Assembly (NCBI GenBank): GCA_001771575.1
Contig: MEUD01000001.1
Location: forward strand, 1,365,277-1,429,276
Reading direction: 5' to 3'
Source: a candidate division WOR-1 bacterium RIFOXYB2_FULL_45_9
GTDB taxonomy: Bacteria; Margulisbacteria; WOR-1; O2-12-FULL-45-9; XYB2-FULL-48-7
DNA length: 64,000 nucleotides
The notes below the pieces were generated by a model, which saw only the letters and a program-made list of their open reading frames with translations, had not been told where the DNA came from and made no database searches. Each line of letters opens with the position of its first letter. Within the stretch, counting starts at the first letter, position 1. Both the position numbers and the translations under genes were made by a program. Below, in pieces: positions 29,053-33,624 of the stretch.

Positions 29053-29063
29053 CCCTCTTTTGT

Positions 29064-29148
29064 GCCCAGGTGGCGGAATTGGTAGACGCAAGGGACTTAA
29101 AATCCCTCGGCCGCATAAGCCATGCCGGTTCGATTCCGGCCCTGGGCA
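29064..29148 (+). tRNA. tRNA-Leu (anticodon UAA)
   Basis: 85 nt with acceptor stem GCCCAGG/CCTGGGC, D-arm GGCGGAATTGGTAGACGC, anticodon stem AGGGA/TCCCT around loop CTTAAAA (anticodon TAA), a long variable arm and T-arm GCCGGTTCGATTCCGGC. The long variable arm fits a type II Leu tRNA. The 3' CCA is not encoded. Confidence 0.96.
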
Positions 29149-29152
29149 TATC

Positions 29153-30349
29153 TTACAGTATCGCGGTCACTTTTTCGACGGGGACCTTAAGGGCGGCTGC
29201 CGCCTGTTCGGCGCTTCCGGACTCCTCAAAAACCCGACGGAGATAATCTTTTTCAAACGATTCCAGAAAACCGCTCCCCAAAGGATCAGCCTCGCCGAGC
29301 GTCAGCTCAAAAGCCAACCGCGTCGGCGAGACCGCCTCACCGGAAAAATTCAGAAAAAATCCCTCGATCGTCAGTTCTAATTCCCGGGTGTTTCCCGGCC
29401 ATTTATATTTTGTTAAAATATCTTCCACCGGTTGGCCGATCTTTCTTATTTCCCGGCCATAGCGGGTGCTGAACAGTTCCAGGTAGTGATTGATCAGCAG
29501 AGGGAGATCGGAGAGCCTGTCCCGCAAAGGGGGGAGAGCGATGGTTGTGCCGTCAAAATCAGGGAGCTCCCTGACATTGCCGGCGATCAGTCTGGCGGAG
29601 CCGAGCGGAACCCCCGGAGGAAAATACTCAAAATTATTGACAAAGATGGAGCTGTCTTTGGCTTTCTCCAGCCAGCCGGTGGCTTTTTCCAGATCGATGG
29701 TAGAGCTTCCGCTGGAGCGGCCAAGCAAGAGCCGGCGGAGACGGTCAGGGGCTATGTCCCGCCGCAGGTCGATCTTATGAAGGGGGAAGGTTCGGCGGCC
29801 GCTTTGGCCGTGGATCAGTTCAGCGACTGCTAATTTTTCGGTCCCGGCTTCTCCGACGATCAAGACCGGGTCATTTCCTCCTGCCGCCCTGGCAATCAAT
29901 TTATTGGCGGAAACGATCGCTTCGCTCTGGCCGATAAGCGGGGCGGGGGGCCGACTTTCTTTTTGTGCCTCTTTTCCCCCCTTGATCAAGGCTTTGCGCC
30001 GCAGGAGACGTTCGGTCATTTTCAGAACCGCGTCCACGTCAAAAGGTTTGATGATGTAATTGTTTGCTCCAAGCTTGATCGCGGCGCTCGCTTTTTGAAC
30101 GTCGTTGACCGCGGTGATCATGATGATCTCCAGCGACGGATCGATCTCTTTGAGCCGTTTGAGCGTTTCCAGTCCATTGATCCCGGGCATTCGGAAATCA
30201 AGGTAGACCAGGTCGATCTTGTGGTCGGCGGCCAGTTTAAGCGCGGCTTCACCGGAGGCGGCGGGGAAAATATTATACTTGCCTTTAAGGATAAGGGCGA
30301 AGGATTCCCTGATCGAAAGCTCATCGTCGACGACTAAAATATTATACAT
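29153..30349 (-). CDS. Response regulator with degenerate sigma-54 activator (NtrC-type) ATPase domain
   Basis: 398 residues. The receiver (about 1-120) looks functional: VVDDE, phosphoacceptor Asp in YLDFRMP, IIKPFD. The AAA+ region is decayed: Walker A reads GEAGTEKL where activators have GESGTGKE; the GAFTGA loop that touches sigma-54 is missing; the Walker B area reads SSIFVNNFEY instead of an FLDE-type motif. LPPLRDR and WPGNTRELE are kept. The C-terminus is a cut-short Fis-type helix. It cannot remodel sigma-54 in the usual way. It follows a small gene (8-bp overlap) behind a likely -24/-12 promoter. Confidence 0.85.
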   Translation of the reverse strand: MYNILVVDDELSIRESFALILKGKYNIFPAASGEAALKLAADHKIDLVYLDFRMPGINGLETLKRLKEIDPSLEIIMITAVNDVQKASAAIKLGANNYIIKPFDVDAVLKMTERLLRRKALIKGGKEAQKESRPPAPLIGQSEAIVSANKLIARAAGGNDPVLIVGEAGTEKLAVAELIHGQSGRRTFPLHKIDLRRDIAPDRLRRLLLGRSSGSSTIDLEKATGWLEKAKDSSIFVNNFEYFPPGVPLGSARLIAGNVRELPDFDGTTIALPPLRDRLSDLPLLINHYLELFSTRYGREIRKIGQPVEDILTKYKWPGNTRELELTIEGFFLNFSGEAVSPTRLAFELTLGEADPLGSGFLESFEKDYLRRVFEESGSAEQAAAALKVPVEKVTAIL

Positions 30350-30701
30350 GGTCGGCGAATCGGTCGATGAGCATTAAAGCTTGTTTGCGCAGTTGGGAGT
30401 TGTTTAAGATCGCCTGGGCGATGGTCCTGACCATAGGCTCGCTCGACCTATCGGCGACCAGGGAAGGGCCGTATTCGGCGGCCAGGGCGACCTTAACTAT
30501 CTTGGAGACTGCCGACTCAATGGTGTCGTCCTTGCTTAGGTTCCGCTCAAGGCCTTTTTCAAAGAGCTCAATCTGCTTGGTCTCTTTTTTGTTTAAGTTG
30601 TCGGTCTCTTTTCCCAGGATCAGAGGGAGAAAAGCGCGGGTAGGCGACCATTCCTGCGTTCTTTTGCCGGGTAATCCGGCGGTCATTTCCAGGTTACTCA
30701 T
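30342..30701 (-). CDS. Small hypothetical protein in the sigma-54 regulator cluster
   Basis: 119 residues, soluble, mostly helical by appearance, no recognised domain. It is Lys/Glu-rich in the middle (NKKETKQIELFEKGLERNL) and ends ALMLIDRFADHV. I take the ATG at 30701 because GGGGGTG lies just upstream and the longer frame enters the promoter. The stop overlaps the degenerate activator by 8 bp, so the two are co-expressed. A partner or output protein of that regulator is plausible but is inference. Confidence 0.65.
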   Translation of the reverse strand: MSNLEMTAGLPGKRTQEWSPTRAFLPLILGKETDNLNKKETKQIELFEKGLERNLSKDDTIESAVSKIVKVALAAEYGPSLVADRSSEPMVRTIAQAILNNSQLRKQALMLIDRFADHV

Positions 30702-30741: not shown

Positions 30742-30758
30742 TAGCAATGCTTTTGCCA
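30742..30758 (-). promoter_or_regulatory. Likely sigma-54 (-24/-12) promoter
   Basis: On the minus strand the sequence is TGGCAAAAGCATTGCT: GG and GC are exactly 10 nt apart, TGGCA matches the -24 core and TTGCT matches the -12 core completely. The start site would be near 30732, about 31 nt before the ATG at 30701, with GGGGGTG as the ribosome-binding site. rpoN and its activator lie next door. Confidence 0.75.
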
Positions 30759-30834
30759 CGAGGGTTTCGGTTGTTGAGTTAAACATTGGCACACATGAAT
30801 GTGCAATTAGAAAGGAGAAATGCACAAGATTGGT

Positions 30835-32181
30835 TCAGATCTTTAGTTTTTTAGTGATGTTGCGGAGGGTGTTGCGGTGGATGCCCAGGATTTTGGCCGC
30901 TTTCCCTTTTTTGCCACCGGTCTTTTCGAGGGTCTGCTTGATAAAATCGATCTCAAACTTTTTTACCGCTCGGGTCAGTGAACTTTCATTATAGCCTGAT
31001 TCGCAGGCTGACTTTCCCTTGATCTCAACGGGGAGTTGGTTCGCTTCAATGAACCCCTCCTTGGTCAGTACGACCAGCCTCTCGATCAGGTTCTCCAGCT
31101 CCCGGACGTTCCCCGGCCAATCGTAGGCCAGGAGATGGGGGAGGACCTCTTTTTTTATTCCCCGGATCTTTTTGCCGAATTCCCGGTTGTATTTGGCGAG
31201 GAAATGATTGGCCAGGAGGGGGAGATCTTCCTTGCGTTCGCGCAGGGGGGGGAGGTTGATCGGGATGACGTTCAACCTGTAATACAGGTCTTCCCTGAAT
31301 TTTCGGTTCTTGATCTCTTCTCGCAGGTCGGAGTTGGTGGCGGAGACGATCCGGACGTCGACCGGGATCGGTTTTTGGCCGCCGACCCGTTCAATCTCTT
31401 TTTCCTGGATGGCGCGCAGGAGCTTGGCCTGCATCGGCAGGGGGAGGCTCCCGATCTCGTCAAGAAAGATCGTTCCGCCGCTGGCGATCTCGAATTTACC
31501 GAGCTGCCGCTCCGCCGCGCCGGTAAAGGAACCGGCTTCGTGGCCGAAGAGCTCCGACTCGAGCAGGTTTTCCGGGATCGCGGCGCAATTGACCGCGACG
31601 AAGAGCTTCTCTTTGCGGGCGCTCCGGTTGTGGATCGCCCGGGCGACCAGCTCTTTGCCGGTCCCCGACTCGCCGGTGATGATGACGGTCGAGTTGCTTT
31701 GAGCGACGTCCTCGATGATGCCGAATATTTCTTTGATCCGGTCGCTGGTCCCGATGATCTTTTCAAATTGCTCGTCCCGATCGATCAGGGCCCTAAGGGA
31801 GAAGTTCTCCCTGGTCAGCGAGCGTTTTTCCAGGACCTTGGCGACTTGTTCCTGCAGGGCTTCAATGTCAAAGGGTTTGGTGATGTAGTCGTACGCTCCG
31901 CTGCGGATCGCTTCGACCGCCTTGCCGACCATGACGACAGCGGTGATCATGATCACTTCGATCGAATCGTCGACCCCTTTGATGATCTTCAGGACCTCGA
32001 TCCCGTCGATCTCGGGGAGATGGATGTCGAGGAGGACGAGGTCGATGGGGAGCTTTTTGACCAGGTCGATCGCTTCCCGGCCGGAAGCGGCGAAGTGCAG
32101 TTCGTAGCGGCCTTCGAGCAGCATCTTCATCGACTCCCGCATGCTCTTTTCGTCGTCAACGACCAGTATTTTTGAGTTCAT
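30835..32181 (-). CDS. Sigma-54-dependent response regulator (NtrC family)
   Basis: 448 residues in three domains. Receiver (about 1-120) with Asp in LLDIHLP and ITKPFD. AAA+ domain (about 140-370) with Walker A GESGTGKE, the sigma-54 loop as GSFTGA (Ser for Ala, a common variant), Walker B IFLDEIGS, LPPLRERKEDLP and WPGNVRELENL. Fis-type helix-turn-helix at the C-terminus (GKAAKILGIHRNTLR). The ATG overlaps the rpoN stop. No histidine kinase gene with a catalytic domain is present, so its phosphodonor must lie elsewhere. Confidence 0.95.
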   Translation of the reverse strand: MNSKILVVDDEKSMRESMKMLLEGRYELHFAASGREAIDLVKKLPIDLVLLDIHLPEIDGIEVLKIIKGVDDSIEVIMITAVVMVGKAVEAIRSGAYDYITKPFDIEALQEQVAKVLEKRSLTRENFSLRALIDRDEQFEKIIGTSDRIKEIFGIIEDVAQSNSTVIITGESGTGKELVARAIHNRSARKEKLFVAVNCAAIPENLLESELFGHEAGSFTGAAERQLGKFEIASGGTIFLDEIGSLPLPMQAKLLRAIQEKEIERVGGQKPIPVDVRIVSATNSDLREEIKNRKFREDLYYRLNVIPINLPPLRERKEDLPLLANHFLAKYNREFGKKIRGIKKEVLPHLLAYDWPGNVRELENLIERLVVLTKEGFIEANQLPVEIKGKSACESGYNESSLTRAVKKFEIDFIKQTLEKTGGKKGKAAKILGIHRNTLRNITKKLKI

Positions 32182-33524
32182 CCTTTTGCCCGATCGCCAG
32201 CCGGGGCGATCTTCAGTTCCTTTCTGTAATAGGCGACGGTCCGTCGATCGATCCGGGCGCCCCGCTCTTTCAGGCGAGCGGTCAGGGCCTGATCGGTCAG
32301 CGGAGCGGTTTTATCTTCGTCTTTGATGATCTCCGCCAGCATCGCTTTAAGCCGGACGGCGGTCATTCCCTTGGGTCCCAGCGGACAGAGCGATTTTAAC
32401 TGGAAAAGTCCCTGCGGCGTCTGGATATATTTGGCCGCCACCGCCCGCGAGATCGTTGACGGATGAAGGCCAAATTCGGCCGCCAGGCTTTTTTGCGTGA
32501 GAGGGATGAGCCATAAGATCCCCTGGCGCAAAAAAGGTTCTTGCCGCTCAACAATCTTTCGGACTATCCTGGATAAAGTTTCACTTCTTTTGCCAAAATC
32601 CTCCATCAGGTGTTTTGCCCGGCGGAATTTTTCTTTCAGAAAGTTTTTGGTCTTTTCGTCCGTTTTGGGATCATCGAGCATCTTGAGGTAGCTTTTTGAT
32701 ATCCGCAGGGTCGGTCCGTAGCGCTCTTCCAGGTTGACGACCTTGAACGTTCCCTCATCGGTTATTTCAACCGCGTAAGAGGGGAGGACCTGCTGGGCTT
32801 CTCCGCCAAAAGACGCTCCAGGGTAGGGGTTGAGGTTCTCTTTGATAAAACCGGCCAGATGTTCGACCCCGCTTTCCGGGATTCCCAGCGCGGCGGCGAC
32901 GGCCGCGTAATTTTTATCGGCCAGATCGTCAAGGTGTTTATCGACCGCGTTTCCCAAAAGCTCCTGCAATTGTTCATTGTCAAAATTATAGGCTTCGATC
33001 TGGATCTTTAGGCATTCCTTAAGGTCCCGGGCGCCGACCCCTTCCGGTTCCAGGCCCTGGATAATTTTTAAGACTTTATCGACCGTTGGACGGGAAACGC
33101 CGCTCCGGGTCATGATCTCTTCGCGGTGGCGCGGGTAATCCTGGATGTAGCCGTTGGCGTCAAGGTGCCCGATCAGTGTTTTAGCGATCGAAAGGTGCGA
33201 TGCAGAAAGGTCCTCGATCTCGAGCTGGTCAAGCAGGTGCTGTTCCAGGGTTTTTTCCACCCGGCTAAAATTCTCCAGTCCGGGGAGATCTTTGAAGTCG
33301 GCGTCTTTCTTGATCCTGCCGTCGGAGGTCAGGTAGCGGAGGAACTCGACGTATTCATCCTGACGTTCGACCTCGAGCATGACGTTCTCTTCCGCTTCCT
33401 TGTTGACGTGCTCGATCAATTCCAGGTAAGGCAAATTAAGGACGTTGAGCATTTGGAGAAGGCGGGGAGAAAGGAGCGTTTCGAGCGTTGTTTTTACGTC
33501 GGCTTGCAGTTGCAGGTTTACCAT
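32178..33524 (-). CDS. rpoN: RNA polymerase sigma-54 factor
   Basis: 448 residues. Region I is the Gln/Leu-rich N-terminus (LETLLSPRLLQMLNVLNLP), the core-binding region follows (about 100-270), and region III has the helix-turn-helix LHPSTISRAVAAKYIQTPQG and the RpoN box as RIDRRTVAYYRKEL, slightly off the ARRTVAKYRE consensus. Sigma-54 needs an AAA+ activator, which is encoded directly downstream (ATGA overlap). The ATG at 33524 follows a TATAAT box by 6 nt with no Shine-Dalgarno. Confidence 0.96.
   Translation of the reverse strand: MVNLQLQADVKTTLETLLSPRLLQMLNVLNLPYLELIEHVNKEAEENVMLEVERQDEYVEFLRYLTSDGRIKKDADFKDLPGLENFSRVEKTLEQHLLDQLEIEDLSASHLSIAKTLIGHLDANGYIQDYPRHREEIMTRSGVSRPTVDKVLKIIQGLEPEGVGARDLKECLKIQIEAYNFDNEQLQELLGNAVDKHLDDLADKNYAAVAAALGIPESGVEHLAGFIKENLNPYPGASFGGEAQQVLPSYAVEITDEGTFKVVNLEERYGPTLRISKSYLKMLDDPKTDEKTKNFLKEKFRRAKHLMEDFGKRSETLSRIVRKIVERQEPFLRQGILWLIPLTQKSLAAEFGLHPSTISRAVAAKYIQTPQGLFQLKSLCPLGPKGMTAVRLKAMLAEIIKDEDKTAPLTDQALTARLKERGARIDRRTVAYYRKELKIAPAGDRAKG

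Positions 33525-33550: not shown

Positions 33551-33624
<74 letters not shown>

Follow-up and report, generated by a model that had tools for sequence, protein, structure and literature searches.

Why is a sigma-54 activator homologue with an inactivated ATPase core kept close to rpoN and a canonical activator? We asked whether this gene, here called the pseudo-activator, is a broken copy or a regulator in its own right, by analysing the window (the whole 64,000-nucleotide stretch of DNA) together with related genomes. Sigma-54 activators are regarded as ATP-driven machines, and the known unconventional ones have mostly lost the sigma-54 contact loop only. The pseudo-activator is best described as a response regulator that descends from sigma-54 activators and has become a conserved pseudo-ATPase, and it is probably a built-in controller of a sigma-54 circuit rather than a broken gene.

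Lost motor motifs and the kept receiver

The gene begins with ATG and reads through on the minus strand (Table 1). Pfam recognised an intact Response_reg domain (96 bits), an AAA_lid_14 match and a degenerate, partial Sigma54_activat match (PF00158; 44.6 bits over residues 138-244 only, cut-off 20.2), against 247.7 bits for the latter domain in the neighbouring canonical activator. HTH_8 was not detected by Pfam, though reported in that neighbour. An AlphaFold2 model built from 30 orthologues had a mean pLDDT of 86.8, with NtrX (5m7p), NtrC1 (1ny5) and NtrC4 as best PDB matches by Foldseek, and the central AAA+ domain is homologous to that of bEBPs. The first-pass annotation had described an inactivated sigma-54 activator homologue with an intact receiver; the Pfam receiver match and the presence of the listed motifs agree with it, including LPPLRDR at residues 272-278 and WPGNTRELE at residues 317-325, which it had named as remaining.

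Table 1. Features of the locus and of DNA-uptake genes in the same genome. Positions are those of the window unless a locus handle is given.
Feature	Position	Strand	Remarks
Pseudo-activator gene, 398 aa	29153..30349	minus	receiver, dead AAA+ core, lid and eroded Fis-like C-terminus
Inactivated Walker B IFVNNFEY, residues 235-242	29624..29647	minus	catalytic Glu absent in 27/27
Replaced sigma-54-contact loop GSSTIDL (GAFTGA position)	29690..29710	minus	from alignment
Inactivated P-loop GEAGTEKL, residues 166-173	29831..29854	minus	third Gly to Glu; Glu in 27/27 orthologues
Phospho-acceptor segment LDFRMPG (Asp51), intact receiver	30182..30202	minus	Asp invariant in 27/27
Small partner gene, 119 aa, helical	30342..30701	minus	overlaps pseudo-activator start by 8 nt; no Pfam/NCBIfam family
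Sigma-54 promoter TGGCAAAAGCATTGCT	30743..30758	minus	41 bp before small gene start
NtrC-type enhancer palindrome GCACATTCATGTGTGC	30789..30804	minus	30 bp upstream of promoter; only exact copy in genome
Canonical NtrC-like response regulator/activator	30835..32181	minus	intact Walker A, GSFTGA, Walker B, HTH_8
rpoN (sigma-54)	32178..33524	minus	Pfam
comEA-comEC (G000)	L230:5237-8042		this genome, behind sigma-54 site
yraN-comM (G000)	L233:6073-7970		this genome, behind sigma-54 site
ssb (G000)	L229:7581-8000		this genome, behind sigma-54 site

The orthologue search covered 57 genomes and gave orthologues in those of the same class, which number 31, several of them fragmented drafts. The pseudo-activator gene is present in 30 of the 31, the exception (G008) being 69% complete. 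In G018 the copy is broken across contig ends; clade and motif counts are based on the 27 full-length copies. These form one clade (SH-aLRT 100), separate from the canonical activators, and all carry the same key substitutions in open frames without stops, in different species. Peptide-pattern matches elsewhere, mostly in Devosia and in other proteins, covered the receiver only and were set aside as non-orthologous.

The motor motifs are altered throughout the clade. The Walker A pattern GxxGxGK is not kept: the first-pass reading of a glycine-to-glutamate change applies to the third Gly, the only position altered in this copy, which retains the P-loop Lys and Thr. We infer that this glutamate abolishes nucleotide binding; since the Lys is present in 25 of the 27 proteins, sequence alone leaves room for residual binding. 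GAFTGA had been called missing, and the motif is indeed lost, but the loop was replaced rather than deleted, and its counterparts in relatives follow a common new pattern, approximately G-x-[ST]-[TV]-x-[DE]-L. Its Phe survives in 1/27, and the fifth-position Gly is absent among the states listed (23 of the 27 rows). In Walker B, whose acidic residues were correctly noted as replaced, Asn, His, Gln or Arg stands in place of Glu, and the Asp, kept in 11/27, is Asn here. The arginine-finger stretch (FREDLYYRL in the neighbouring activator) is missing or replaced; at neither finger position is Arg a leading state in the clade, this copy has gaps at both, and the sensor residues of the core are gone as well. 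The HTH recognition residues, RNT in 21/21 canonical activators, are mostly replaced by Pro and hydrophobic residues, with Pro at the Arg position in 19/27. Judged by its sequence, the pseudo-activator lacks what an ATP-driven sigma-54 activator needs.

The receiver shows the opposite pattern. All five switch residues (D, D, D, T and K, that is the acidic pair, the phospho-Asp, the Thr switch and the Lys) are invariant in the 27 proteins. Mean pairwise identity in this domain is 65.2% among pseudo-activators versus 59.9% in the canonical activator, whereas the corresponding values are 34.5% versus 72.2% in the AAA+ core and 34.6% versus 59.5% in the C-terminus. Between this genome and its congener, dN/dS is 0.12 for the whole gene and 0.018 for the receiver alone, and purifying selection is strong. 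Because the receiver is held while the core drifts, the conserved function seems to be centred on the receiver. The first-pass view of the protein as remodelled, not random, is borne out by the single class-wide clade, the invariant P-loop Glu and the low dN/dS. The same key motif losses were found in every full-length orthologue, and no relative with intact motifs emerged that would mark this copy as one-genome decay (Walker B Glu retained in 0/27, third P-loop Gly in 0/27).

The small partner gene, its promoter and its enhancer

The pseudo-activator had been placed in a cluster with rpoN and a canonical activator. This arrangement, with the small gene lying between the two activator-type genes, recurs in 12 of 20 long neighbourhood loci, and families f1, f2, f4 and f6 often have the genes arranged as rpoN, activator, small gene, pseudo-activator. 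In other families of the class, however, the pair of small gene and pseudo-activator stands apart, while rpoN and its activator lie together elsewhere. The small protein is therefore the more faithful partner of the pseudo-activator, and in the several families where rpoN and the activator are not its neighbours, the pair is linked to them by the promoter elements alone. A pilT and/or prepilin peptidase gene lies near the pair in 14 of the 20 loci, and some families have no pilus genes in its neighbourhood. No histidine kinase gene was recognised beside the locus, and this genome encodes two further canonical activators. At the edges of the cluster, a tRNA-Leu gene (29063-29149) ends 3 bp from the 3' end of the pseudo-activator in convergent orientation, and a tRNA-Met gene (33551-33624) lies upstream of rpoN.

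The small partner, a protein of about 110 aa, was found by its profile in 30 of the 31 class genomes and sits directly upstream of the pseudo-activator in the loci examined. The two frames overlap by 8 nt in six of the seven loci measured and by 1 nt in the seventh. The predicted structure of the protein is helical (block pLDDT 89-97 for residues 41-110), its dN/dS is 0.086, and nothing above noise came from Pfam, from NCBIfam or from the PDB, whether by sequence or by fold. Strong matches are confined to the class, with weak paralogues outside it. In many class genomes, flhA and the gene for a FliA-like sigma factor flank a distant paralogue (L169-L183, e.g. L174:5110-5352), which, judged by gene position only, could regulate the flagellar sigma factor in a FlgM-like anti-sigma role. 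A further version occurs in another family of the phylum (f10; L184-L187), near a pyruvate-kinase-like gene and with no flagellar or sigma-54 neighbour.

The promoter of the pair was recognised with a sigma-54 consensus learned for this genome, about TGGCAATAARATTGCT. It is one of 20 TGGYAN6TTGCT sites in this genome, and the best site within 250 bp upstream of the pair has at most one mismatch to TGGCA-N6-TTGCT in 24 of 27 loci. The classical consensus TGGCACN5TTGCW, with 2 mismatches allowed, gave no excess in the window (18 matches versus 20.9 by chance). Beside the promoter, an unsupervised dyad search found the palindrome GCACA-N6-TGTGC, which is present with at most one mismatch in 25/27 loci; mean mismatches were 0.59 versus 3.52 in shuffles, and such shuffles and E-values bear on the sequence elements, not on their function. 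The 31 class genomes hold 40 exact copies, 14 of them by count at the pair's promoter, where several relatives carry tandem copies. The NtrC box is TGCACC-N5-GGTGCA, which we take the palindrome to resemble. The recognition-helix residues RNTL of the canonical activator are invariant in 21/21, and this activator may bind the palindrome.

Sigma-54 sites before DNA-uptake genes

Elsewhere in this genome, sigma-54 sites precede ssb, comEA-comEC, yraN-comM (YifB) and topA with pseudopilin-like genes, and also a ComGA/PilB-like ATPase gene, a secretin operon and nitrogen genes. Among relatives, 14 had an exact site a short distance before comEA and 18 had one before yraN (L242-L297); as controls, the motif in reverse gave 1 and 0, and the other strand gave 0. 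Most of these sites lie 11-14 bp before the start codon; with the usual sigma-54 spacing this places the start codon at about +1, so that the mRNAs would be leaderless. The promoters before DNA-uptake and recombination genes of many class genomes suggest a sigma-54 competence regulon. In Ralstonia, both twitching and natural competence are known to require RpoN (PMC4371752), and to connect sigma-54 with competence is thus not entirely novel.

The enhancer palindrome was absent at comEA, yraN, ssb and the other sigma-54 promoters searched, and we therefore dropped the idea that one enhancer serves the entire regulon. The neighbouring activator thus stays a putative driver of comEA, yraN and ssb. 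Two other groups of genes with sigma-54 sites were noted by eye: ORF6N-like and 23S-intervening-sequence-like genes just behind perfect sites (L211, L225 and L194 of G000), and, at 1465000-1481000 of G000 (L238), a GAF-type activator with two amtB-glnK pairs and the genes of a glutamine synthetase and of glutamate synthase behind it, and with three sites in the region.

A putative feedback module and its relation to known systems

We propose, with a probability of roughly 45%, that the pseudo-activator is a phospho-controlled, sigma-54-induced protein that feeds back on the neighbouring activator. The phosphorylated canonical activator, next door in this family, would bind the enhancer palindrome and switch on the small-protein/pseudo-activator operon from its sigma-54 promoter. 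The receiver of the pseudo-activator would accept phosphoryl groups, and together with the small protein the pseudo-activator would damp the output of the activator or set its timing. The feedback loop thus closed would lie within a sigma-54 regulon which, in this class, apparently includes DNA-uptake (natural competence) and type IV pilus genes. Phosphate control, as first suggested for this protein, would fit the invariant receiver. We infer both the feedback on the neighbouring activator and its sign, and damping is the least certain step. Against this reading stand the promoters of comEA, yraN and ssb without the palindrome, the two other canonical activators in the genome and the families in which the pair lies away from rpoN and the activator. 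More tentatively still, the pair may represent a previously undescribed, class-wide sigma-54 feedback module. In it, a pseudo-ATPase response regulator whose P-loop Glu is fixed and a member of a new family of small helical proteins, both encoded in an enhancer-driven operon, would control a sigma-54-dependent natural-competence/type IV pilus regulon.

The main rival, which we consider rather unlikely, holds that the pair is the activator's main output and no damper, the phosphorylated pseudo-activator acting on proteins, for example of the pilus/DNA-uptake machinery, and not on transcription. It would be unusual for an activator to have no recognisable enhancer other than that of its own damper, and the only exact enhancer copy in the genome does lie at the pair's operon, so the pair could instead be what the activator is for. 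The lost recognition-helix residues, the receiver as best conserved domain, the pilus genes near the pair in most loci and the flagellar position of the small-protein paralogue point the same way. This reading is weakened by the families whose neighbourhood has no pilus genes, and no sequence link connects the pair to a pilus component.

It had also been suggested that the protein opposes or titrates the activator, and as an inactive subunit of mixed rings or dimers it could serve as co-activator or poison. The kept overall fold, with its NtrX, NtrC1 and NtrC4 matches, would allow this, and hetero-oligomers of paralogues are known (VnfA1-VnfA3 and HrpRS). However, arginine fingers and sensor residues are gone, the core has drifted far beyond that of its presumed partner, which argues against a conserved ring interface, and a central segment is further deleted in this genome's family. 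Mixed-ring poisoning was therefore rejected as first choice and such rings seem improbable; feedback through the receiver is preferred to them because the receiver is held and the core is not. It is very improbable that the protein regulates sigma-70 promoters as a GAFTGA-less DNA-binding protein like NtrC of Rhodobacter and Caulobacter: the loss of GAFTGA is common to both, and such proteins exist, but Caulobacter NtrC needs its Walker residues (PMC10274813), which are dead in all 27 pseudo-activators, and these proteins act on DNA, whereas recognition residues are replaced here and HTH_8 went undetected. A decaying pseudogene or a sequencing artefact has next to no probability. Core and C-terminus do evolve faster than in the activator, but class-wide conservation of the open frame with its substitutions rules out decay or a frameshift, as do the selection on the gene and the conserved promoter and enhancer.

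New here are the small partner, the pair's own sigma-54 promoter, the NtrC-like enhancer and the sigma-54 sites before comEA-comEC, yraN-comM and ssb. A clade in which the whole motor is lost and the phospho-switch kept, and which has a constant partner and an enhancer of its own, would show clearly how a regulator can become a pseudoenzyme, and it makes the role of a dead sigma-54 activator directly testable. Sigma-54 promoters before DNA-uptake genes across the class would amount to an unusual control of natural transformation.

In Streptococcus competence, DprA turns down phosphorylated ComE. This competence shut-off (PMC7665891) resembles the proposed loop no further than in the idea that a late product, once induced, lowers the activity of a phosphorylated competence regulator; there is no homology, sigma-X takes the place of sigma-54, and DprA is not a response regulator. 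With NtrC/PilR-type bEBPs, the pseudo-activator shares the order of receiver, AAA+ core, AAA+ lid and Fis-like C-terminus; unlike them, it has no functional Walker A or B, GAFTGA, arginine fingers or HTH recognition residues. Like the GAFTGA-less NtrC, NtrX and VpsR proteins, it would make no sigma-54 contact through loop 1, but those proteins act on DNA, and it has lost the DNA-recognition and Walker features too. The closest published arrangement is vnfZ-vnfA3 of Azotobacter vinelandii, a sigma-54-induced, translationally coupled pair that modulates the parent activator, both co-activating and repressing its targets (PMC9542535). VnfZ is a substrate-binding-protein homologue, whereas the small partner here is helical and no such homology was found for it, and VnfA3, in a further difference from the pseudo-activator, binds target promoters and co-activates (PMC9542535). 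Common to both systems is a sigma-54 promoter before an operon of a coupled partner and an activator paralogue.
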